Positions 2,365 through 12,048 of a stretch of DNA of 64,000 bases are shown here, one piece after another. The stretch lies in NCBI RefSeq assembly GCF_000712075.1, contig NZ_JONW01000005.1, forward strand, positions 5,001-69,000. The letters are read 5' to 3'. The stretch comes from Caulobacter sp. UNC358MFTsu5.1. GTDB lineage: Bacteria > Pseudomonadota > Alphaproteobacteria > Caulobacterales > Caulobacteraceae. Position 1 is the stretch's first letter; the number at the start of each line of letters is the position of its first letter. The position numbers were made by a program, and so were the translations under genes. Below the pieces are notes generated by a model. It did not search any database and had not been told where the DNA came from. It worked only from the letters and a program-made list of their open reading frames with translations.

Positions 2365-2841
2365 ATGGCTGCGAGTGTGAAGAAACTGCCGGGCGCCGGC
2401 CGCCTGCTGGCGATCAGCGCCGCCGTGCTGGCCCTGGCCGCGGCCGCGACGGGCCTGGTGCTGTCGAGCCCCGCCCGCGCCCAGACCCTGGACACCAACT
2501 CCGCCTCGTTCAACGCCGGCTACGGCCGCGTGGCCGGTTCCGAGAACCACGTGGTCGAGTATTCGACCCGCGACGCCAACGGCAACCGGGTGATCGTCGA
2601 CGGCGTCATGCTGACCGGCGCCGACCAGAGCGTCTATTCGTCCAGCCGGTCGTCGGGCTCGCTGGACTCCTATTCGGGCGTCGGCTCCCTCGGGGGCTGG
2701 GGCAGCTCCACGGCGATCGGCAACAACCTGACGGTCGTCACCCAGGGCAACAACAACACCGTCATCGTCAACTCCAGCCAGATCAACAACGGCAACATCA
2801 GCGCCGGAACGAACGTCGGGAAATCGGGCAATGGCCAGTAA
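2365..2841 (+). CDS. hfaA: Holdfast anchor protein HfaA
   Basis: The protein has 158 residues from ATG 2365, preceded by GAGG at a suitable distance; an in-frame TTG 36 bases earlier lies inside the promoter and is rejected. A signal peptide ends near ARA-Q (about residue 38). The mature part is rich in Asn, Gly, Ser and Thr. Its C-terminal third contains the curlin-like run GNNLTVVTQGNNNTVIVN, consistent with the amyloid-like HfaA subunit that anchors the polysaccharide holdfast to the stalk tip in Caulobacter. It is the first gene of hfaABD and its stop lies 11 bases inside hfaB. The call rests on gene order as well as sequence. Confidence 0.85.
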   Translation: MAASVKKLPGAGRLLAISAAVLALAAAATGLVLSSPARAQTLDTNSASFNAGYGRVAGSENHVVEYSTRDANGNRVIVDGVMLTGADQSVYSSSRSSGSLDSYSGVGSLGGWGSSTAIGNNLTVVTQGNNNTVIVNSSQINNGNISAGTNVGKSGNGQ

Positions 2842-3844
2842 GCGCCTCCTCCTTCTGCTGGCGGGCGCCTGCGCCGCGCTGAGCGCGTGCGGCGGCGTTC
2901 CCAAGTCGATGACCGACGGCAACTACGCCACGCCGATCGGCTCGGCGCCCGTGACCGCCAATCCGACGCCCTACACCGCCGGCCTGGTCTGCCTGGCGCA
3001 GTACGCCCGCGCCAACCACGTGGTCGCGCCGCGCGTCGCCATCGGCCGCATCGCCGACTACACCGGCAAGGAAGAGTCCGACGGTTCGGGCCGCAAGGTC
3101 ACCCAGGGCGCCTCGCTGCTGGCCATGACCGCCTTCGCCAAGGCCGGCATGCCCATGGTCGAGCGCTTCGACACCTCGGTGTCGGAGTACGAGCTGAAGT
3201 ACGCCAACAACAAGCTGATCTCCGACAACCCCAAGCCGGGCGCCGACGCCCCGGCCGACTACCGCCGCATCCTGGCGGGCCAGGTCCCGGGCTCGGACTT
3301 CTATGTGGCCGGCGGCATCACCGAGCTGAACTACAACATCCGCTCGGTCGGGGCCGACGCCTATATCGGCGACAAGGACACCGACGGCCTGAAGGGCAAC
3401 TTCCGCCGCCGGGTGTTCGTGATGAACATCGCCCTGGACCTGCGCCTGATCAACACCCGCACCCTCGAGGTCGTGGACGTGATCTCCTACCAGAAGCAGG
3501 TGGTCGGCCGCGAGATCAGCGCCGGTGTCTTCGACTTCCTCAATGGCAACATCTTCGACATCTCGGCGGGCCGCGGCGCGCTGGAGCCGATGCAGCTGGC
3601 CGTGCGCTCGCTGATCGAGCGGGCCACCATCGAGATGAGCGCCAACCTCTACGGCATGCCGGGTCCGCAGAGCTGCCTGCAGTACGACCCCTACGCCGCC
3701 AACACCGTCGGCGCGACCGGGGCCTTCGTCCCCGCCTACAACAACCTGGGAACCAACAATGCGCAGACCCGCGAAGACCCGTCTCGCTGGAACGATCGCA
3801 GCGATCCCAATGTGCGTGATGCTGGCAAGCGGGGTCGCTACTAG
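2831..3844 (+). CDS. hfaB: Holdfast anchor secretion lipoprotein HfaB (CsgG family)
   Basis: The 337-aa lipoprotein has a lipobox LSAC with Cys20 as the lipidated residue, then a CsgG-type domain covering most of the chain. CsgG proteins form a multimeric outer-membrane pore that exports unfolded amyloid subunits. In Caulobacter HfaB is required for HfaA and HfaD to reach the cell surface. The start overlaps the hfaA stop by 11 bases (ATGGCCAGTAA), so translation is probably coupled. The 3' end overlaps hfaD by 86 bases. Its closest functional counterpart here is the CsgG-like gene at 6604. Confidence 0.88.
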   Translation: MASKRLLLLLAGACAALSACGGVPKSMTDGNYATPIGSAPVTANPTPYTAGLVCLAQYARANHVVAPRVAIGRIADYTGKEESDGSGRKVTQGASLLAMTAFAKAGMPMVERFDTSVSEYELKYANNKLISDNPKPGADAPADYRRILAGQVPGSDFYVAGGITELNYNIRSVGADAYIGDKDTDGLKGNFRRRVFVMNIALDLRLINTRTLEVVDVISYQKQVVGREISAGVFDFLNGNIFDISAGRGALEPMQLAVRSLIERATIEMSANLYGMPGPQSCLQYDPYAANTVGATGAFVPAYNNLGTNNAQTREDPSRWNDRSDPNVRDAGKRGRY

Positions 3845-5000
3845 CCAGACCGTCCCCGTCCAGGGCTCCAACGACCAGTTGAACCTCGGCGGGATCTTCG
3901 CCGACCAGACCCTGAACGTCGTCACCGCCGACGAGGGCGTCACCGCCACCACCACGGCGGGGGGCAACACCTTCGGCGCGACGACCGTCAACGCCGACGC
4001 CGGCCTGACGTCCAACCAGGTGAACCAGGGCGCGATCGGCGCCCACGGCGTGGTCAACGTCTCAGGCTCCATGGGCGACTCCAGCACCGTGACCACGACG
4101 GCCGTCGGCAACAGCGGCACGGCCACGGCGGCCTACGGGACGCTGAGCGGCTTCATGGTCCAGACCAACAGCGGCGCGGTCACCGCCCGCAGCCAGATCG
4201 AGGGCGAGACGGCCCAGGCCGGCGACGTGATCGAGACCAGCTCGGCGGCCGGCAACAGCCAGGGCCTGCTGATGGTCAACGGCGCGATGGGCGCGCGGGT
4301 CAGCCAGAACAACCAGGCCGACGTCGCCGCCGACGGCGGGGCGGTGCTGCAGTACGTGGCCGGGACCGCGGTCGTGGCCGGCACGGCGGCGGGCAACAAC
4401 ATCGACCTGACCGGAGCCAACCAGTCGGCGGCCCGGGTGATCACCGACCAGAACAACGGCGCGGCCAATGTCACGGCCACCAAGTTCGCGGCCTACGGCA
4501 ACAGCTACCTGACCACCACGGCGGCCACGGCCTCGGGCAACAACCTGAACGCCAGCAACGACGGCACGCTGCTGGACGTGGCCAGCCACCAGTACAACAC
4601 CGCCTATGTGCGGGCCCAGGCCGAGGAGACCTCGTACCAGTTCGGCGGCGCCCAGGCGACGGCGTACGGCGTGGGCAACTCGGCCATGGCCAGCAACAGC
4701 AACGGCCCTGGCCTGGTGCTGGACAACGTCCAGGTCAACGACGGCGGCGGGGTCGAGGTGATCGCCAGCTTCGACGGCCATGACGGCTACGACGCCGGCG
4801 CCAGCGCCACGGCCATCGGCAACGCGGTCAGCGGCTACGCCTGCAACCTGTGCAGCGGCACGATGACGGCCACCAACAGCCAGTCCAACAATGTCGACAT
4901 CAGCGCCCGCTCGACCGTGACCGTCCGCTCGTCGGGCCGCGCGGTCGTGGGCGTCTCGACCGCGACGGGGAACAACGCGACGTTCTCGGTGACGAACTAG
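3759..5000 (+). CDS. hfaD: Holdfast anchor protein HfaD
   Basis: The 413-residue protein has an N-terminal signal peptide (about residues 1-30, cleavage near ATS-Q) and a long mature part rich in Gly, Asn, Ala, Thr and Val. It is built from degenerate repeats containing A-x-GN motifs (AVGNSGTATA, AAGNNIDLTG, ATGNNATF) spaced about 35-45 residues apart. This fits a beta-rich surface protein like HfaD, which together with HfaA anchors the holdfast. ATG 3759 lies 86 bases inside hfaB. It is preferred because the next internal Met would cut off the charged start of the signal peptide. A conserved CNLCS pair of cysteines lies near residue 365. Confidence 0.82.
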   Translation: MRRPAKTRLAGTIAAIPMCVMLASGVATSQTVPVQGSNDQLNLGGIFADQTLNVVTADEGVTATTTAGGNTFGATTVNADAGLTSNQVNQGAIGAHGVVNVSGSMGDSSTVTTTAVGNSGTATAAYGTLSGFMVQTNSGAVTARSQIEGETAQAGDVIETSSAAGNSQGLLMVNGAMGARVSQNNQADVAADGGAVLQYVAGTAVVAGTAAGNNIDLTGANQSAARVITDQNNGAANVTATKFAAYGNSYLTTTAATASGNNLNASNDGTLLDVASHQYNTAYVRAQAEETSYQFGGAQATAYGVGNSAMASNSNGPGLVLDNVQVNDGGGVEVIASFDGHDGYDAGASATAIGNAVSGYACNLCSGTMTATNSQSNNVDISARSTVTVRSSGRAVVGVSTATGNNATFSVTN

Positions 5001-5044
5001 GGCCGGCACGGGCGGGACTCCCTTCTCGATCAGGCGCGGTCAGC

Positions 5045-5163
5045 CCTTGCCCCCTACGGACCGCTTCGCGGTCGTCTTCCCCCGGAGGGGGAAGAGCCTC
5101 GCGCAGGCGGCTCCGCCCCCTACGGGGGCGGACAGGCGGCGAAGCCGCCAGGTGGGGGCAAGG
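5045..5163. repeat. Palindromic intergenic repeat element
   Basis: Outer arms CCTTGCCCCC (5045-5054) and GGGGGCAAGG (5154-5163) enclose nested hairpins: ACCGCTTCGCGGT, CTTCCCCCGGAGGGGGAAG, CCGCCCCCTACGGGGGCGG and GGCGGCGAAGCCGCC. This is a typical REP/BIME-like chromosomal element, and it could also end hfaABD transcription. Confidence 0.6.
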
Positions 5164-5693
5164 GGGTCAGCCACGGCTTTTCAGCCTCACGCGATCTCTC
5201 GCTGAAGGTATGGAAAGGGACGCGGAGCGCCGGACATCGTCCGGAGTGTTTGAAGCAGTAACCGTTTCGACGAAGCCCGATCGCTCCGCGCGGTCGTTAT
5301 CCGGAAGCGCGGCGGCGCCGAGTTCTGTTCGAACCTCGCCGCCTTGAAGCCTCCGACGGGCGGGCCAGGTCAACGACACCCGGTCCCGGACCGCGAGCCT
5401 CTCACAGCCCGCCTGCTGCTCAATCGGCCCCCATCCAACGCTGTATCCGTGTTCCGAGCCCAGCCGGCACCAGATGGATGGAGTTTGATCCTTTCGGACC
5501 GCCGACAGAGCTTCCCGCTCGATCGCCCCCCGCCGCCGCATCGGTCGCTGGCCATGCGCCCTTTCCCGCGTCGAGGTGGGTAAAGGATACGAGCGGTTTG
5601 GAGGGTGAGCATAAGTTCGGTCGAAAAAGTTCAGGGCGTTGAAATCACTGAGGTTCATCCGCTATCCACCGAGCATAAATCACCCACTTTGAA

Positions 5694-5848
5694 CCCTCTC
5701 CCATAGGGAGAGGGCAGGGTGAGGGGTTACGGCGCCCGCCGGCGCGCCGGCAATGCGGCCGCAGCCAAACCCGACAGGGTGAAACCCCTCACCCTCCCAC
5801 GCCTGCGGCGCGGGCCCCTCCCTCTCCCTCTGGGAGAGGGCGCGAGGC
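5694..5848. repeat. Paired inverted repeat (ccctctccc family)
   Basis: CCCTCTCCC-ATA-GGGAGAGGG (5694-5714) followed by CAGGGTGAGGGG faces an opposite copy at about 5780-5840 (CCCCTCACCCTCCC ... CCCTCTGGGAGAGGG). The same two-ended arrangement recurs at 42167-42401, and a single palindrome of the family is at 29525-29545. Confidence 0.6.
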
Positions 5849-6073
5849 GCCGCACCTCAAACCCCATCGACAAAAGGGATTTCAATATTCAGACAGTGTC
5901 CGCATCCGCATTTCACCCATCATTGAAATACATCCCCCACGCTCCCCAAGCACTCCAAAAACTAGGTAGATGACCTGATTGACTCCCCTAAACCCCGGGA
6001 GCAAGGGTTCTGGCATTGTGGCGCCGCTTGACGGGCCGCCGTCGAGCCGATCGCCATCCAGGATGGCTTCGCT

Positions 6074-6601
6074 ATGCACAGTTTCATTTGCGCATCCCCC
6101 GGCGGGCGGATGCGAAATCTCGCCGGACCCGGCGAACGAACCCTCGCGCCTGATCGTCGCCGGGGCTCGCACCGCACCCCCTGGGTCGCCTTCGGCGCGG
6201 CGCTGGGCCTGTCGCTGACGGCGACGCAAGGCCTGGCCACCGACCTGCGCTACGCGCCGATGTCGCCCAACTTCGGCGGCTTCAACCCCGTGGGCTTCCA
6301 GATGGCCCAGTACGAGAAGTCGCTGAAGGCCGCCCAGGCGGCCGCCGAAGCCGCGGCGGCGCGCGCCGGGACGCCCAGCGATCCGAACGCCGCCTTCGTC
6401 AACGCCATCATCTCGCAGCTGAACGGCATCGTCGCCCAGACCATCGCCCAGAGGATCGCCAACGCCGGCGACGGCCAGGCCGGCACCATCCAGTCCGGAT
6501 CGGTGACCATCACCTACATCAATTCGGACGGGCAACTGAGCGTGACCATCACCTCGCCGACCGGCACGACCACCCTAGTCATCCCCTCCGGCGGGGTTTG
6601 A
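6074..6601 (+). CDS. CsgF-like curli assembly protein
   Basis: After a long basic leader and a signal peptide ending near GLA-T, the mature part begins TDLRYAPMSPNFGGFNP. PNFGG is the hallmark N-terminal motif of CsgF, the part that plugs into the CsgG pore. Later segments also parallel E. coli CsgF: FVNAIISQLNG resembles FTQAIQSQILG, and DGQLSVTITSPTGTTTLVI resembles its DGQLQLNVTD region. CsgF couples CsgG secretion to nucleation of the amyloid subunit. Start choice is uncertain: ATG 6074 has a loosely placed AGGA upstream, and ATG 6110 would also give a usable signal peptide. The stop is three bases before the csgG-like ATG. Confidence 0.82.
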   Translation: MHSFICASPGGRMRNLAGPGERTLAPDRRRGSHRTPWVAFGAALGLSLTATQGLATDLRYAPMSPNFGGFNPVGFQMAQYEKSLKAAQAAAEAAAARAGTPSDPNAAFVNAIISQLNGIVAQTIAQRIANAGDGQAGTIQSGSVTITYINSDGQLSVTITSPTGTTTLVIPSGGV

Positions 6602-6603
6602 CC

Positions 6604-7392
6604 ATGAGGGGGGGCAGAGCGCTGGCCGGACTGATCGCGGCGACCGTCCTGGCCGGCTGCGTGACCGCGCCGGTCCATCCGCCCGAAGTGCAGACCCAGC
6701 CGGACTTCACCCTGCCGCCCGCCCCGCCCCGCGCCCTGACGGTGGGGGTCTACAGCTGCATCGACACCTCGGGCCAGCGGCGGCCGACCAAGCTGCCGCA
6801 GGAACTGAGCACGGCGGTGCCCATGGACTGCACGCCCTATCTGATCGACGCCGTGCGCTCGGTGCCCAGGGGCTATGTCTTCCTGGTCGAACGCCAGCAT
6901 GTCGATGAGCTGCTGCGCGAGCGGCAACTGGCCACCCTGGCGCTGAACACACCGCCGGAAACCACCGCGCCCGCCGCCGGCCTGGAGGCGCTTCCGCCGC
7001 CCCCGGCCCGCCGCCTGATCACCCTGAGGGTGGCCGAGATCCTGCTGATCGGCCAGGTCGTCGCCTACGACCGCGCCACGCGCCAGGCGGCCGGCGGCCT
7101 GGCGGTCAACGGCACGGGCGGCAGCGGGGAATACGTCACCGACCTGGTGACCTTCAGCCTCCGCGCCGTGGCCGTCCAGACCGGCGAGGTGCTGGGCCAG
7201 GCCACGGTCAGCAAGTCGGTCACCTCGCTGTCGATCGGCGGGCACATCTCCAAGATCTACGACACCTCGACGGTGGAATTCGAAATCGGCGGCGCGGGCA
7301 ACGAGCCCGTGGGCCTGGCGCTGGGCGCGGCCGTGCGCAGCGCGCTGTTCGCACTGATCAACCAGGGGCTTCGCGACGGATGGTGGTCCTGA
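6604..7392 (+). CDS. CsgG-like curli secretion lipoprotein
   Basis: The 262-aa protein has a clear lipobox LAGC (Cys16) and a CsgG domain. Regions recognisably parallel E. coli CsgG: VGVYSCIDTSGQ, LSTAVPMDCTPYLIDAV (the constriction-loop region), FLVERQHVDELLRERQL, LRAVAVQTGEVLGQATVSKSV, and NEPVGLALGAAV near the end. It ends at DGWWS, shortly after that point, so it lacks the C-terminal tail of E. coli CsgG. It should form an outer-membrane export channel for the protein at 7421. ATG 6604 is used; an in-frame TTG at 6598 would overlap the upstream stop. It is a paralogue in function of HfaB 3 kb away. Confidence 0.87.
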   Translation: MRGGRALAGLIAATVLAGCVTAPVHPPEVQTQPDFTLPPAPPRALTVGVYSCIDTSGQRRPTKLPQELSTAVPMDCTPYLIDAVRSVPRGYVFLVERQHVDELLRERQLATLALNTPPETTAPAAGLEALPPPPARRLITLRVAEILLIGQVVAYDRATRQAAGGLAVNGTGGSGEYVTDLVTFSLRAVAVQTGEVLGQATVSKSVTSLSIGGHISKIYDTSTVEFEIGGAGNEPVGLALGAAVRSALFALINQGLRDGWWS

Positions 7393-7420
7393 GCGGGTCC
7401 CGACATAAGGGAGAGAGGAA

Positions 7421-8539
7421 ATGTCTCAGTCACAACGGGCCAGGAGCCGCCTAGGACGAACCGTCAGGCTGCTGCTGATGGCCTCGGCCGCTTGTGCGGC
7501 CATGGGGGCGGCCGCCGACGTCGCCCTCGCCGCCAACACCCTCAACATCGACATCAGCGGCGGCGGCACGGTGCGGTCCCTGCGGATCCGGCAGGACAAT
7601 GTGGGCCCCACCCACGTGATCAGCGCCAACGGCGCCACCAACGGGGCGGCCTTCCCCGTGCGCGGCGCGTGGAACAGCATCGCCATCACCCAGATCGGCC
7701 AGAGCAACACCCTGGCCGGGGCGGTCACCTCCAGCGCCTCGACCACCGCCTCGCTCAGCCTGACCTACGGCTCCGGCGTGACCGGCGGTAACAACCATCA
7801 CAGCCTGACGATCGGCGGGACCACGGCGCCGGTGAACCCCAGCGTCACGGTGGCCGTCATCAACTCCGATCCGACCAACGCCACCAACACGATCACCGAC
7901 GTGCTGGACGGCTCCAGCCTGACCTACGCCCTGACGCTGAACGGCGCCGACAACACCGTGGCCAACACCCTGGCCGCCACCGGCGCGGTCAATGTGACGG
8001 AGACGATCAACGGCGGCGCCCTGGGCGTCGGCAACACCGTCACCAACACCATCACCGGCGCGACCACGATCACCGGCACGATCACCATCGCCTCGGACGA
8101 CAACGTGGTGACCAACACCTCCGACGGGGCCGGAGCCAAGACGTTCAGCGTCAACCTGCCCAGCGGCGGCGCCGACGGCAACACGATCAGCACCGACTTC
8201 ACCGGCGGCTCGGGGACCCAGATCTCGAACCTGACGGTCAACGGCGTGACCTCGCGCGTCGACTACAGCGTCGTGGCCAGCGGCGCGGGATCGACTGTCA
8301 ACACCACGCTCAGCAACGCCGTCGGCGCGGCGGGCGCGGCGGGCGTCGTGCGGGTGGTCCAGACCGGCAGCGGCGCCTCCCTGGGCCTGACCGTCAACGG
8401 CGGGGCCTTCACCATGGGCTCCGACACGGTGGACAGCCTGACCGGCGGCATCCTGGTCACCCAGGCCAATCCCGGCGCCTCGGCCAACCTGATCGTCACC
8501 GCGGGGGGCGATGGCTACACATTCGCGATCAGCCAGTAG
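7421..8539 (+). CDS. Curlin-repeat-like secreted protein, probable amyloid subunit
   Basis: The 372-aa protein has a signal peptide (basic start, then LLLMASAACAAMGAAADVALA) and ATG 7421 follows AGAGAGGAA. The mature chain is almost free of Lys, Cys and aromatics and rich in Thr, Asn, Gly, Val and Ser. One stretch, ITQIGQSNTLAGAV, fits the curlin repeat pattern Q-x-G-x-x-N-x-A. Several further GxxNTVxNT segments (GADNTVANT, GVGNTVTNT, SDDNVVTNT) repeat every 30-40 residues. Placed directly after CsgF- and CsgG-like genes, it is the best candidate for the exported fibre subunit. It is much longer than CsgA (about 150 aa). Amyloid formation is inferred, not shown. Confidence 0.68.
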   Translation: MSQSQRARSRLGRTVRLLLMASAACAAMGAAADVALAANTLNIDISGGGTVRSLRIRQDNVGPTHVISANGATNGAAFPVRGAWNSIAITQIGQSNTLAGAVTSSASTTASLSLTYGSGVTGGNNHHSLTIGGTTAPVNPSVTVAVINSDPTNATNTITDVLDGSSLTYALTLNGADNTVANTLAATGAVNVTETINGGALGVGNTVTNTITGATTITGTITIASDDNVVTNTSDGAGAKTFSVNLPSGGADGNTISTDFTGGSGTQISNLTVNGVTSRVDYSVVASGAGSTVNTTLSNAVGAAGAAGVVRVVQTGSGASLGLTVNGGAFTMGSDTVDSLTGGILVTQANPGASANLIVTAGGDGYTFAISQ

Positions 8540-8966
8540 GGTCGCAGCCCTCGCCCTGCTGCTGGGGCTGGCGGCGGGTGTCGTCCTGACGACGCCCGCC
8601 GCCAGTCGCGCCGCGACCCTGCTGATCTGCCGGGTGTTCGACACCGCCACGCCGCCGATCCGCCCCCTGGTCGTGCCCGCCGGCTCGCTGTTCCGCGACA
8701 CCGGCCGCTCGGACGATCCCCTGGCGGCCTTCACCGGCGACGCCTGGTCGCTGCGGCTGGAGACCGTGGGCGACACCGTGATCCCCTCGCTTCGGGCCTG
8801 CGCCCGCTCCCCCGTGCGGATCACCAGCGACTCCAGCGTCAAGGCGGTGTCGGCCAACGACAACCGGACCTTCGTCTACGCCGGCTCGAACCTGCTGCTC
8901 GACGCGCCCGAGACGTCGGAGGAGATGTTCGGACTGACGGGCCGGATGCTGGACCAGGCGCCTTGA
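8511..8966 (+). CDS. Small secreted protein of the Csg-like operon, unknown family
   Basis: The 151-aa protein has an N-terminal signal peptide (about residues 1-34, ending ASRA-A). The mature part of about 115 residues has two cysteines, in LLICRVF and LRACARS, that could form a disulfide. I do not recognise the family; it is not obviously CsgE, CsgC or CsgH. ATG 8511 lies 29 bases inside the preceding curlin-like gene, which argues for translational coupling and joint function. A periplasmic chaperone, a minor subunit or a nucleator are all possible. This is the last gene of the operon. Confidence 0.65.
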   Translation: MATHSRSASRVAALALLLGLAAGVVLTTPAASRAATLLICRVFDTATPPIRPLVVPAGSLFRDTGRSDDPLAAFTGDAWSLRLETVGDTVIPSLRACARSPVRITSDSSVKAVSANDNRTFVYAGSNLLLDAPETSEEMFGLTGRMLDQAP

Positions 8967-9093
8967 GACCTGCCGGCGACACGCGCCCCGATCGACGCCG
9001 GAGCGTGGCCGTTTCGCCCAACCGACGCCTTGCTTGCGCCACGTGCTCCGGCCAAGGTGCGCCCCCTCCGATGGTCTATCCTCAAGGTCGCAC

Positions 9094-12048
9094 ATGATCC
9101 GCGTTTCGCGCCTGGCGCTCGTCCTCTCCGCCGGGCTCAGCCTCTCAGCCTGCGCGACCCTGTCCCACGTGATGCCCGGCGGAAAGGACGAGGCCGCCGC
9201 GCCGGCCGCCCCGGCCGCAACGTCGACGCCCAAGGCGTCGCACGAGCTTCCGCCCAAGCCGTCGCCCAAGACCTCTGACGTCCCGACCATCGACCAGGTG
9301 AAGCCGGGCCAGTGGCCGCAGGCCGTCTCGGACGTCGCGCCCGATCCGCGCGTGCGCTTCGGCGTGCTGCCCAACGGCATGCGCTACGCCATCCAGAAGA
9401 ACGCCACCCCGCCCGGCCAGGCCGCCCTGCGCCTGTGGTTCGACGCCGGCTCGCTGAACGAGACCGACGAACAGCAGGGCCTGGCCCACTTCCTCGAGCA
9501 CATGGCCTTCAACGGCTCCAAGAACGTGCCCGAAGGCGAGATGATCAAGATCCTCGAGCGCCACGGCCTGTCGTTCGGCGCCGACACCAACGCCTCGACC
9601 AATTTCAGCGAGACCACCTACCAGCTGGACCTGCCCAAAACCGACGACGACACGGTCGACACCGCCATGATGCTGCTGCGCGAGGCGGCCGGCGAGCTGA
9701 CCATCGCGCCGGACGCGGTGGATCGCGAGCGCGGCGTGGTGCTGTCGGAGGAGCGCACCCGCGACAGCCCCGGCTACCGCGTGTTCGTCAACACCTTCGG
9801 CTTCCAGCTGCAGGGCCAGCGGCCGCCGCAGCGCCTGCCGATCGGCAAGACCGACATCCTCAAGGCCGCCCCGGCCCAGACCATCCGCGACTTCTACCAG
9901 GCCTGGTACCGGCCCGAGAACGCCGTGGTGGTGGCGGTGGGCGACTTCGACGTCGACGCCATGGAGGCCAAGATCAAGGCCCGCTTCGGCGACTGGAAGG
10001 GCCAGGGCCAGCCGGGCGTGAGGCCCGACCTCGGCCCCGTGGCCAAGCGCGGCCTGACCGCCAAGGTGCTGGTCGAGCCCGGCGCCCAGACCTCGGTCCA
10101 GATGGCCTGGGTCCTGCCGCCCGACCTGGAGCTGGAGACCCGCGCCAAGGACAAGGAAGAGCTGGCCAAGGCCCTGGGCTTCGCGGTGCTGAACCGACGG
10201 CTGACGGTGCTGACGCGCTCGGACAATCCGCCGTTCATCGTCGCCGTGGCCGTGCAGAACGACCAGGAGCACGCCGCCGACATCACCACCCTCGGCGCCA
10301 CCGTCCAGCCGGGCCACTGGGCCGAGGCGCTGACCGCCCTGGAGCAGGAACAGCGCCGCATCGTCCAGTACGGCGTGCGCCAGGACGAGCTGGACCGCGA
10401 GATCGCCTCGATGCGGGCCGCCTTCGTGGCCGCCGCCGCGGGCGAGGCCACCCAGCGCACCACGGCCCTGGCCGGCGCCATCGTCGGCACGCTGGGCGAT
10501 CGCGAGATCGTCACCAGCCCGTCCCAGAACCTGGCCGTCTTCGACGAGGCCACCAAGGGCCTGACCGCCGAGAAGGTCTCGGCCCTGGTGAAGGCCCAGT
10601 TCGCCGGCTCGGGCCCGCTGATCACCGTCCCGACCCCGACCGCCATCGACGGCGCGGAGAAGACGGTGCTGGACGCCTACGCCGCCTCGGCCAAGACCCC
10701 GGTCACGGCCCCGGCCGCGCCGGGCGTCATCAACTGGCCCTATGCGACGTTCGGCGCCAAGGGCGCGGTCGTCGAGCAGAAGGACGTCACCGACCTGGAC
10801 ACCGTCTTCGTGCGTTTCGCCAACGGCGTGCGCCTGACGGTCAAGCCGACCAAGTTCCGCGACGACCAGATCCTGGTGAAGGCTCGGATCGGCCACGGCC
10901 TGCTGGACCTGCCGTCGGGCGCCCAGTCCCCGATGTGGGCCGGCTCGGCCTTCATCGAGGGCGGCCTCAAGCAGATCAGCACCCAGGACATGGAGCGGGT
11001 GCTGAACGGCAAGGTCTACAACGCCGGCCTGGGGGTCGAGGACGACGCCTTCAGCCTGTCGGGCCGCACCCGTCCGGAGGACCTGGACACCGAACTGCAG
11101 GTGCTGGCCGCCTACGCCACCGAGGGCGGCTGGCGTCCCGAGGCCTTCAACCGCATCAAGACCTATTACGGCTCGATCCACGACCAGCTGGAAAGCACGC
11201 CCAGCGGCGTGATGGGGCGCGACCTGGGCGGGCTGCTGCACGGCGGCGACGGCCGCTGGACCTTCCCAAGCCGCCAGCAGATCGCCGGCGCGACGCTGGA
11301 ACCGCTGAAGTCGGCGGTGTCCGGTCCGCTGGCCGCCGATTCCATCGAGGTGGTGATCGTCGGCGACATCACGGTCGACAAGGCCGTGGCGGCCGTGGCC
11401 CAGACCTTCGGCGCCCTGCCGGCCCGTCCCGACACCCCGGCCCCGGCCGGGGCCGAGAAGGCGCCCTTCCCCGCCCCGTCGAAGACCCCGATCGTCCGCA
11501 CCCACAAGGGCCGGGCCGACCAGGGCCAGCTGTTCATGGCCTGGAAGACCGACGACCTGTTCAGCGACCTGCAGCGGGCCCGCAACATCCAGGTCCTGGC
11601 CCAGGTGATGCAGCTGCGGCTGACCGACGAACTGCGCGAGAAGCAGGGGGCGACCTATTCGCCCTCGGCCTCGGCGACGGCCAGCGTGGCCTTCACCGGC
11701 TGGGGCTATCTGGCGGTCAGCGTTGAGACCCCGCCCGACAAGATCGACGGCGTCATCGCCAGCATCCGCCAGATCGCCGCCGACCTGCGCGACAAGCCGA
11801 TCGACGCCGACGAGCTGGAACGGGCCAAGAAGCCGCGCATCGACCAGATCGAGAAGGCCCGCGAAACCAACGAGTACTGGCTGGGAGCCCTGTCGGGCGC
11901 CCAGACCGACCCGCGCCTGCTGACCGCCACCCGCTCGGTGCTGGCCGGCCTGCAGCGCGTCAGCATCGCCGACGTCCAGAAGGCGGCCCAGACCTTCCTG
12001 GGCGACGACAAGTCGTGGACGATGATCGTCAAGCCGGAGGGGAAGTAA
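9094..12048 (+). CDS. M16 family zinc metallopeptidase, lipoprotein
   Basis: The 984-aa protein starts at ATG 9094; an upstream in-frame start at 9034 is rejected because it would bury the signal peptide. A lipobox LSAC marks a lipoprotein. The first M16 domain carries the inverted zinc motif HFLEH (H132, E135, H136), with the third ligand in SEERTRD near residue 219. A second, inactive M16 half follows, as in pitrilysin and insulinase proteins, which enclose and degrade short peptides. Location should be periplasmic and membrane-anchored. It stands alone, and a perfect palindrome 9 bp after its stop may end the transcript. Confidence 0.92.
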   Translation: MIRVSRLALVLSAGLSLSACATLSHVMPGGKDEAAAPAAPAATSTPKASHELPPKPSPKTSDVPTIDQVKPGQWPQAVSDVAPDPRVRFGVLPNGMRYAIQKNATPPGQAALRLWFDAGSLNETDEQQGLAHFLEHMAFNGSKNVPEGEMIKILERHGLSFGADTNASTNFSETTYQLDLPKTDDDTVDTAMMLLREAAGELTIAPDAVDRERGVVLSEERTRDSPGYRVFVNTFGFQLQGQRPPQRLPIGKTDILKAAPAQTIRDFYQAWYRPENAVVVAVGDFDVDAMEAKIKARFGDWKGQGQPGVRPDLGPVAKRGLTAKVLVEPGAQTSVQMAWVLPPDLELETRAKDKEELAKALGFAVLNRRLTVLTRSDNPPFIVAVAVQNDQEHAADITTLGATVQPGHWAEALTALEQEQRRIVQYGVRQDELDREIASMRAAFVAAAAGEATQRTTALAGAIVGTLGDREIVTSPSQNLAVFDEATKGLTAEKVSALVKAQFAGSGPLITVPTPTAIDGAEKTVLDAYAASAKTPVTAPAAPGVINWPYATFGAKGAVVEQKDVTDLDTVFVRFANGVRLTVKPTKFRDDQILVKARIGHGLLDLPSGAQSPMWAGSAFIEGGLKQISTQDMERVLNGKVYNAGLGVEDDAFSLSGRTRPEDLDTELQVLAAYATEGGWRPEAFNRIKTYYGSIHDQLESTPSGVMGRDLGGLLHGGDGRWTFPSRQQIAGATLEPLKSAVSGPLAADSIEVVIVGDITVDKAVAAVAQTFGALPARPDTPAPAGAEKAPFPAPSKTPIVRTHKGRADQGQLFMAWKTDDLFSDLQRARNIQVLAQVMQLRLTDELREKQGATYSPSASATASVAFTGWGYLAVSVETPPDKIDGVIASIRQIAADLRDKPIDADELERAKKPRIDQIEKARETNEYWLGALSGAQTDPRLLTATRSVLAGLQRVSIADVQKAAQTFLGDDKSWTMIVKPEGK

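Follow-up and report, generated by a model that had tools for sequence, protein, structure and literature searches.

A 64,000 nucleotide stretch of the genome of Caulobacter sp. UNC358MFTsu5.1 (contig NZ_JONW01000005.1, positions 5,001 to 69,000), hereafter termed the window, carries four closely packed genes on the forward strand, which are here designated csgF, csgG, rep and sm. Together they probably specify a second CsgG-type exporter, equipped with a CsgF and serving a surface protein of its own. Open reading frames have been found exactly where a first-pass annotation, made from the letters of the window, had placed a tight four-gene run (6074 to 8966), with csgF and csgG separated by 2 nt, csgG and rep by 28 nt, and rep and sm overlapping by 29 nt (Table 1). 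The start of csgF is ambiguous between two ATG codons (6074 or 6110), and the mature N-terminus of its product has been placed by eye near TDLRYAPMSPNFGG. Searches with hidden Markov models (HMMs) have confirmed the assignment of the first two genes to the CsgF and CsgG families, as that annotation had proposed, with scores above the Pfam gathering cut-offs of 25.8 bits for PF10614 and 20.8 bits for PF03783. For rep and sm, no Pfam or NCBIfam match has been obtained at E 1.

Table 1. Features of the four-gene cassette and of its surroundings, in window coordinates.
Feature	Position	Strand	Remarks
csgF-like gene, variant type	6074..6601	+	PF10614 51.4 bits; alternative start ATG 6110
csgG-like gene, putative outer-membrane channel lipoprotein of the variant clade	6604..7392	+	PF03783 99.4 bits; Cys52 and Cys76 invariant
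rep, 372-aa predicted secreted beta-solenoid, proposed fibre subunit	7421..8539	+	AlphaFold2 model; curlin-type strands near both ends
sm, 151-aa predicted secreted protein, proposed accessory	8511..8966	+	Cys40 and Cys97 invariant; follows rep
hairpin-rich stretch at and before the csgF start	5955..6165	+	85% identity with Root1455 (G170; L027 831-1038)
hfaA	2365..2841	+	named by position; 92-94% identical in 4 of 6 relatives, 74% in 2
hfaB, other CsgG relative	2831..3844	+	NF037935 437 bits
hfaD	3759..5000	+	NF037936 419 bits
large downstream gene, end of the variable interval	9094..12048	+	in 71 of 75 genus genomes at E 1e-200

The set is not a chance arrangement, since the same gene order recurs in other genomes, with ratios of nonsynonymous to synonymous substitution rates (dN/dS) below 0.5 in two genome pairs. 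Across the four genes, dN/dS ranges from 0.18 to 0.47 between the window and Caulobacter sp. Root1455 (G170) and from 0.26 to 0.43 between G215 and G200, the large downstream gene serving as a yardstick with 0.31 in one genome pair. Matches to PF10614 occur in 21 of 299 genomes of the family, five of which carry csgF-csgG-rep-sm in this order, namely G000, G170, G200 and G215 within the genus and G259, a Phenylobacterium metagenome-assembled genome (MAG), in another. The first-pass annotation had proposed a survey of Caulobacterales genomes for the four genes; among the genomes covered here the cassette is rare (four of the 75 Caulobacter-group genomes, 15 of which lie outside the limits of 90% completeness and 5% contamination, and the Phenylobacterium MAG), its order being kept where it is present. 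Further copies have been found in Telmatospirillum, Acetobacteraceae and Rhodospirillales MAGs, which brings the known cassettes to eight. Identity to the window copy is 53-81% for rep and 57-87% for sm in the cassette genomes of the family, 46-89% for sm among the cassettes and 56-83% for CsgF in four other cassettes. The sm gene directly follows rep in all six cassettes whose sequence extends that far, the Telmatospirillum and Rhodospirillales contigs stopping inside rep. In the Acetobacteraceae MAG (L047) the order is csgF, csgG, rep (390 aa), sm (147 aa) and a second rep (254 aa).

The genome from which the window derives contains two CsgG-family genes, the variant csgG and hfaB, and a single CsgF. 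Neither CsgE (PF10627) nor curlin repeats (PF07012) have been detected in any of the five cassette-bearing genomes, with positive E. coli controls for both models; to this extent, an initial observation that CsgE and short CsgA or CsgB proteins were lacking has been upheld. The relationship of the variant CsgF to its family has been established by profile-profile comparison, in which the variant profile (n=5) matched canonical CsgF (n=10) with 98.5% probability. PNFGG or PSFGG is present in all seven aligned variant CsgFs of the eight known, and these seven have six additional alignment columns after the PNFGG region when compared with ten other CsgFs. An initial scan of genome contigs with CsgF alone as the query gave no match, and a CsgF profile search against solved structures retrieved no CsgF chain.

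The CsgG proteins of the cassettes form a clade of their own. In a maximum-likelihood tree of 27 CsgGs, from which L061 and HfaB were left out, the eight variants lie on one side of a long-stem branch with support of 100/100, opposite the 19 others. The residue comparison, likewise made without L061, shows cysteines at the equivalents of E. coli positions 41 and 64 in 8/8 variants, against 0/19 of the others and 0/17 of a further set (0/36). This cysteine pair flanks the loop carrying residues 51, 55 and 56, which have been reported to line the CsgG pore (PMC6957492). A disulphide at the base of this eyelet loop is a reasonable guess from the sequence. Tryptophan occupies position 236, in the cargo-binding crevice, in all eight variants and in 0/18 of the others that extend this far, the crevice as described in PMC6957492 being only partly altered. 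A lipobox, LAGC, has been recognized by eye, and its Cys19 is invariant in 8/8 variants. Only the cysteine pair and Trp236 have been retained as hallmarks of the clade, because the eyelet residues are shared with other CsgGs: Thr51 and Leu56 occur in ordinary alphaproteobacterial CsgGs and Glu55 in 2/19 of the others. The variants also end one or two residues past the equivalent of Trp237, whereas 15 others, those whose extracted sequence ran beyond that point, continue for at least 25 residues; the absence of this C-terminal extension has been rejected as a hallmark, since some CsgGs of the phylum-wide draw, in open frames of 261-274 aa, seem to be without one too.

The separation of the clade is apparent in genome surveys as well. 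A profile of the eight variants gave four matches of 487-502 bits among the 75 genus genomes and a fifth of 28 bits, and in draws of 385 genomes from the class and 398 from the phylum only the genome of the window came near, the next best scoring 111 and 129 bits. The high scorers are themselves rows of the profile and score high by construction, so that only the absence of intermediates is informative: no CsgG lies between 129 and 486 bits in the three draws. With the HfaB model (NF037935), the variant CsgG reaches 14.8 bits against a cut-off of 300. The first-pass annotation had described two adjacent exporters, and its view of a second CsgG exporter distinct from HfaB has held in this respect.

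In the remaining 16 of the 299 family genomes, csgF loci of another kind occur, a CsgG relative standing beside csgF in 16/16 and long curlin-looking proteins lying downstream in many; the two that were tested both match PF07012. In many such Caulobacteraceae loci (L031-L044) long curlin-like proteins come after csgF-csgG, and the C-terminal extensions of their CsgGs measure 70 to 213 residues in the 10 rows read to the end. In two genomes of genus g2 (L029 6291-9797 and L030), frames for two short, degenerate proteins resembling curlins and for a protein of 358 aa lie after csgG; of the curlin-like proteins a short one of L029 was tested, with no PF07012 match.

The candidate cargo, rep, has the composition and predicted fold of a secreted, beta-rich protein. 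Rep proteins begin with a signal peptide (by eye), resemble curlins in composition with 50-56% S, T, N, Q and G and few charges, and lack cysteine except for one in the short Acetobacteraceae rep. An AlphaFold2 model based on six sequences is a beta-solenoid of 26 strands, with a predicted local distance difference test (pLDDT) score of 71.2 and a predicted template modelling (pTM) score of 0.76. The median strand spacing is 13 residues, which gives about 26 residues per two-strand turn, a length near the 23 +/- 5 residues reported for curlin repeats (PMC10192328). The window rep contains five Psi-x-Psi-x-Q strands where 1.5 are expected from shuffles (p 0.0065, for a short pattern chosen after seeing the sequence), and the seven other rep sequences, which are not independent, show an excess with p from 0 to 0.046. 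No such excess is found in HfaA and HfaD. In the window rep these strands lie near the two ends and terminate in Gln 58, 91, 314, 348 and 372. All five are invariant in the five Caulobacter and Phenylobacterium copies, and three of them (Gln 58, 91 and 348) are shared by the two Acetobacteraceae copies as well. When a rep profile was run against 41 sequences, two degenerate curlins of G036 were matched at E of about 1e-4 and CsgA and CsgB at 0.013 and 0.015, the level reached by shuffles being E 41 among those listed (15 of 21). These results are suggestive of rep being a strongly degenerate relative of curlins. The initial description of this protein as curlin-repeat-like has been retained for some five curlin-like strands near the ends and abandoned as regards regular repeats.

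The fourth protein, sm, has a signal peptide (by eye) and two cysteines, Cys40 and Cys97, which are invariant in 6/6 copies. Its best match among the PHROGs reaches only E 0.074. In an order-wide draw of 398 genomes, the sm profile matched its own genome and, marginally, two others at E 6e-4 and 9e-4. These two matches have been put down to chance, and the hit list did not include the remaining cassette genomes. An accessory role may be proposed for sm from its position, its co-occurrence with the other genes, the apparent signal peptide and the absence of CsgE (0/5 genomes). Resemblances of the sm structure model to a GlxA domain (Z 9.9, root-mean-square deviation (rmsd) 2.7, 88 aligned) and to phage baseplate chains have not been used, as the model is too poor.

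Taken together, the four genes can be read as one variant type VIII (curli-type) operon in which rep would be a degenerate curlin-like fibre subunit and sm an accessory, and this is the interpretation that we favour, with modest confidence. To judge from family membership, CsgG would form the outer-membrane pore and CsgF would plug its outer mouth. Rep would cross CsgG unfolded and fold outside into a beta-solenoid with two strands per turn, probably then assembling into a surface fibre by end-to-end stacking on the curlin-type glutamine strands near both ends. After export to the periplasm, sm, which probably has a disulphide bond, might keep rep soluble or pass it to CsgG, in place of CsgE, CsgC or CsgH; of these steps the last is the least secure. 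The first-pass annotation had suggested a separate fibre with its own nucleator. A dedicated surface protein is indeed probable, whereas the nucleator has not been seen, each of the five cassette genomes searched having a single rep gene, beside csgG. The second short rep of the Acetobacteraceae MAG qualifies this statement, and two QxGxxN turns have been noted in it (L047 8512-9276), making it a possible CsgB-like nucleator.

Several results weigh against a curlin-like fibre. The window rep has no PF07012 match at E 1, and none was obtained at E 10 for three further rep proteins; the model found two of three curlin-like controls and missed that of L029, so that some curlins escape it. The full curlin kernel N-x-Psi-x-Psi-x-Q, as defined in PMC10192328, is enriched in all seven curlin controls and not in rep (1 vs 0.24, p 0.2). 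In the 41-sequence test, 7/11 curlins scored no better than shuffles. Alignment of rep with canonical curlins by hhalign gave 11.5%, largely across the N-terminal part that includes the signal peptide, and the window rep contains one QxGxxN turn against 5-15 in regular curlins. An idea that the ends of rep are more constrained than its middle was discarded, the middle being about as conserved in the Caulobacter and Phenylobacterium copies. On the strength of PF07012, hhalign and the motif counts, rep has been ruled out as an ordinary curlin and kept as a possible degenerate relative. Foldseek found no significant match for the rep model (best E 0.62), and comparison by VIA returned generic beta-helix proteins (best Z 17.7, rmsd 4.2, 289 aligned) with many unrelated ties; since VIA ranks many unrelated beta-helix proteins alike, it indicates a beta-solenoid and nothing further. 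As for sm, comparisons with CsgE and with a CsgH-like protein have revealed no kinship, and the model of its structure is poor (pLDDT 56.8). Comparison with one protein, which we take to be CsgH-like, gave a probability of 0.1%, no CsgC or CsgH model having been searched by name.

The same material bears on the alternatives. A more far-reaching proposal is that of a separate type VIII branch, in which channel, plug and cargo would have changed together, with a disulphide-pinned CsgG eyelet loop, a solenoid built on a different core that retains docking strands of the curlin type only close to both ends, a disulphide-bonded sm replacing CsgE and CsgC/CsgH, and a cassette that moves as a whole between Caulobacterales and bacteria of the Rhodospirillales type; it can be entertained tentatively. 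The kernel that is not enriched and the 7/11 curlins at shuffle level have lowered the standing of this proposal and of the variant operon with a degenerate curlin-like subunit, and have raised that of two rivals. Rep might be exported by CsgG and CsgF without forming amyloid, as a single beta-helix adhesin or a surface protein binding or acting on polysaccharides. Its middle is conserved yet poor in Gln, the kernel result points the same way, and the VIA rows include many polysaccharide lyases, epimerases and tailspikes and one S-layer protein, RsaA. These rows, however, share only a common solenoid shape, at 6-15% identity and with many tied Z values, while the strands of rep end in conserved Gln and binding of CsgF to CsgB, a curli subunit, has been reported (PMC6957492), and we consider such a protein rather unlikely.

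A curli operon of the usual alphaproteobacterial kind, with a CsgA that has simply drifted, would accommodate the lack of CsgE, as curli operons without it have been reported to be usual in Alphaproteobacteria (PMC3521004), and would agree with the 16 other csgF loci with adjacent csgG and with the failure of PF07012 on the curlin-like protein of L029. It is nevertheless made improbable by the long stem and full support of the variant CsgG clade, the empty score range around it, a cysteine pair present in 8/8 variants and 0/36 others and the lack of any counterpart found for sm. Scarcely probable at all is an additional holdfast-anchor part working with the neighbouring HfaABD. The cassette does adjoin hfaABD in the window, about 1 kb away, HfaB is a CsgG relative, and HfaA has been reported to be curlin-like (PMC6707917); against this, the cassette lies elsewhere in 3/5 cassette genomes, the interval between hfaD and the large downstream gene is without it in 6/6 relatives readable at both ends, and 71/75 genus genomes show no variant CsgG.

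The three genomes with the cassette elsewhere are G215, G200 and the Phenylobacterium MAG, where it stands among quite different genes, the five cassette genomes offering four kinds of site. In G170 the downstream genes are as in the window, and the contig begins 946 nt before csgF, the hfa side falling outside it. The large downstream gene of the window presumably encodes an M16-type peptidase. In Caulobacter relatives, seven of which were fetched for this interval (one contig ending before hfaD), the order of hfaABD, interval and M16 gene is kept, and the interval, which spans 5001-9093 in the window, varies in content and from 0.7 to 3.7 kb in length. With names given by eye, a glutathione-transferase-like and a kinase-like frame occupy it in G212 and a beta-helix-like protein in G091 and G191, and the 0.7 kb of G188 hold little. 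Given the cassettes found elsewhere and the six relatives without one, the hfa neighbourhood is, on this evidence, incidental, and the two adjacent exporters do not form a functional unit, contrary to the pairing first suggested; the hfa operon would be an unrelated resident of the site. No plasmid or phage place for the cassette has been found at 60% identity or more, a search of viral contigs with two peptide patterns gave no relative, and the base composition does not point to a foreign origin. The hairpin-rich leader at the csgF start is conserved at full length with Root1455 only, short pieces being all that occurs elsewhere in the 75 genomes. These pieces come mostly from around query positions 65-113, and 28/75 Caulobacter genomes show a match of some kind at E 0.01. 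At least one paired change preserving a stem has been noted by eye between the window and Root1455, and a riboswitch search gave no Rfam match at E 1.

The cassette shares with alphaproteobacterial curli operons (csgF-csgG-csgA) a PNFGG-type CsgF, a CsgG lipoprotein channel, a downstream secreted beta-rich protein and the lack of CsgE, and differs from them in its own CsgG clade with the cysteine pair, six more residues after the CsgF motif, a cargo without regular curlin repeats and the extra gene sm. The absence of CsgE and CsgD has been described as usual in Alphaproteobacteria (PMC3521004). As CsgE-less curli are already known there, the cassette is, to judge from its sequence, a type VIII system by channel and plug, and by the subunit tested it is not a curli operon. 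The degenerate (D) class of CsgA, as outlined in PMC10192328, resembles rep in missing core N/Q and in turns of more than 23 residues. Members of that class were found with the Dueholm curlin HMM; rep is missed by PF07012 and has Gln strands only near its ends. HfaABD likewise combines a CsgG-family exporter with secreted, beta-prone proteins of low charge, and unlike the cassette it has no CsgF. Pelagiphage and methylophage csgGF share csgF and csgG, with 28-33% identity over CsgG, and the methylophage has been reported to be without csgA and csgB (PMC9004378).

The first-pass annotation had held the four-gene set to be undescribed in Caulobacter, and no description has surfaced among the open-access titles and abstract openings listed. 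The cassette is a rare, divergent form of the outer-membrane machine of curli fibres, combined with an unusual fibre-like protein that the standard curli model misses. Surveys of curli that start from CsgA repeat models may overlook systems whose cargo such models miss. If rep forms fibres, it would provide a test of how much of an Asn/Gln ladder a functional amyloid requires, and of whether CsgG and CsgF accept cargo far from CsgA. The small protein sm is, in turn, a candidate for the factor that replaces CsgE in bacteria without CsgE.

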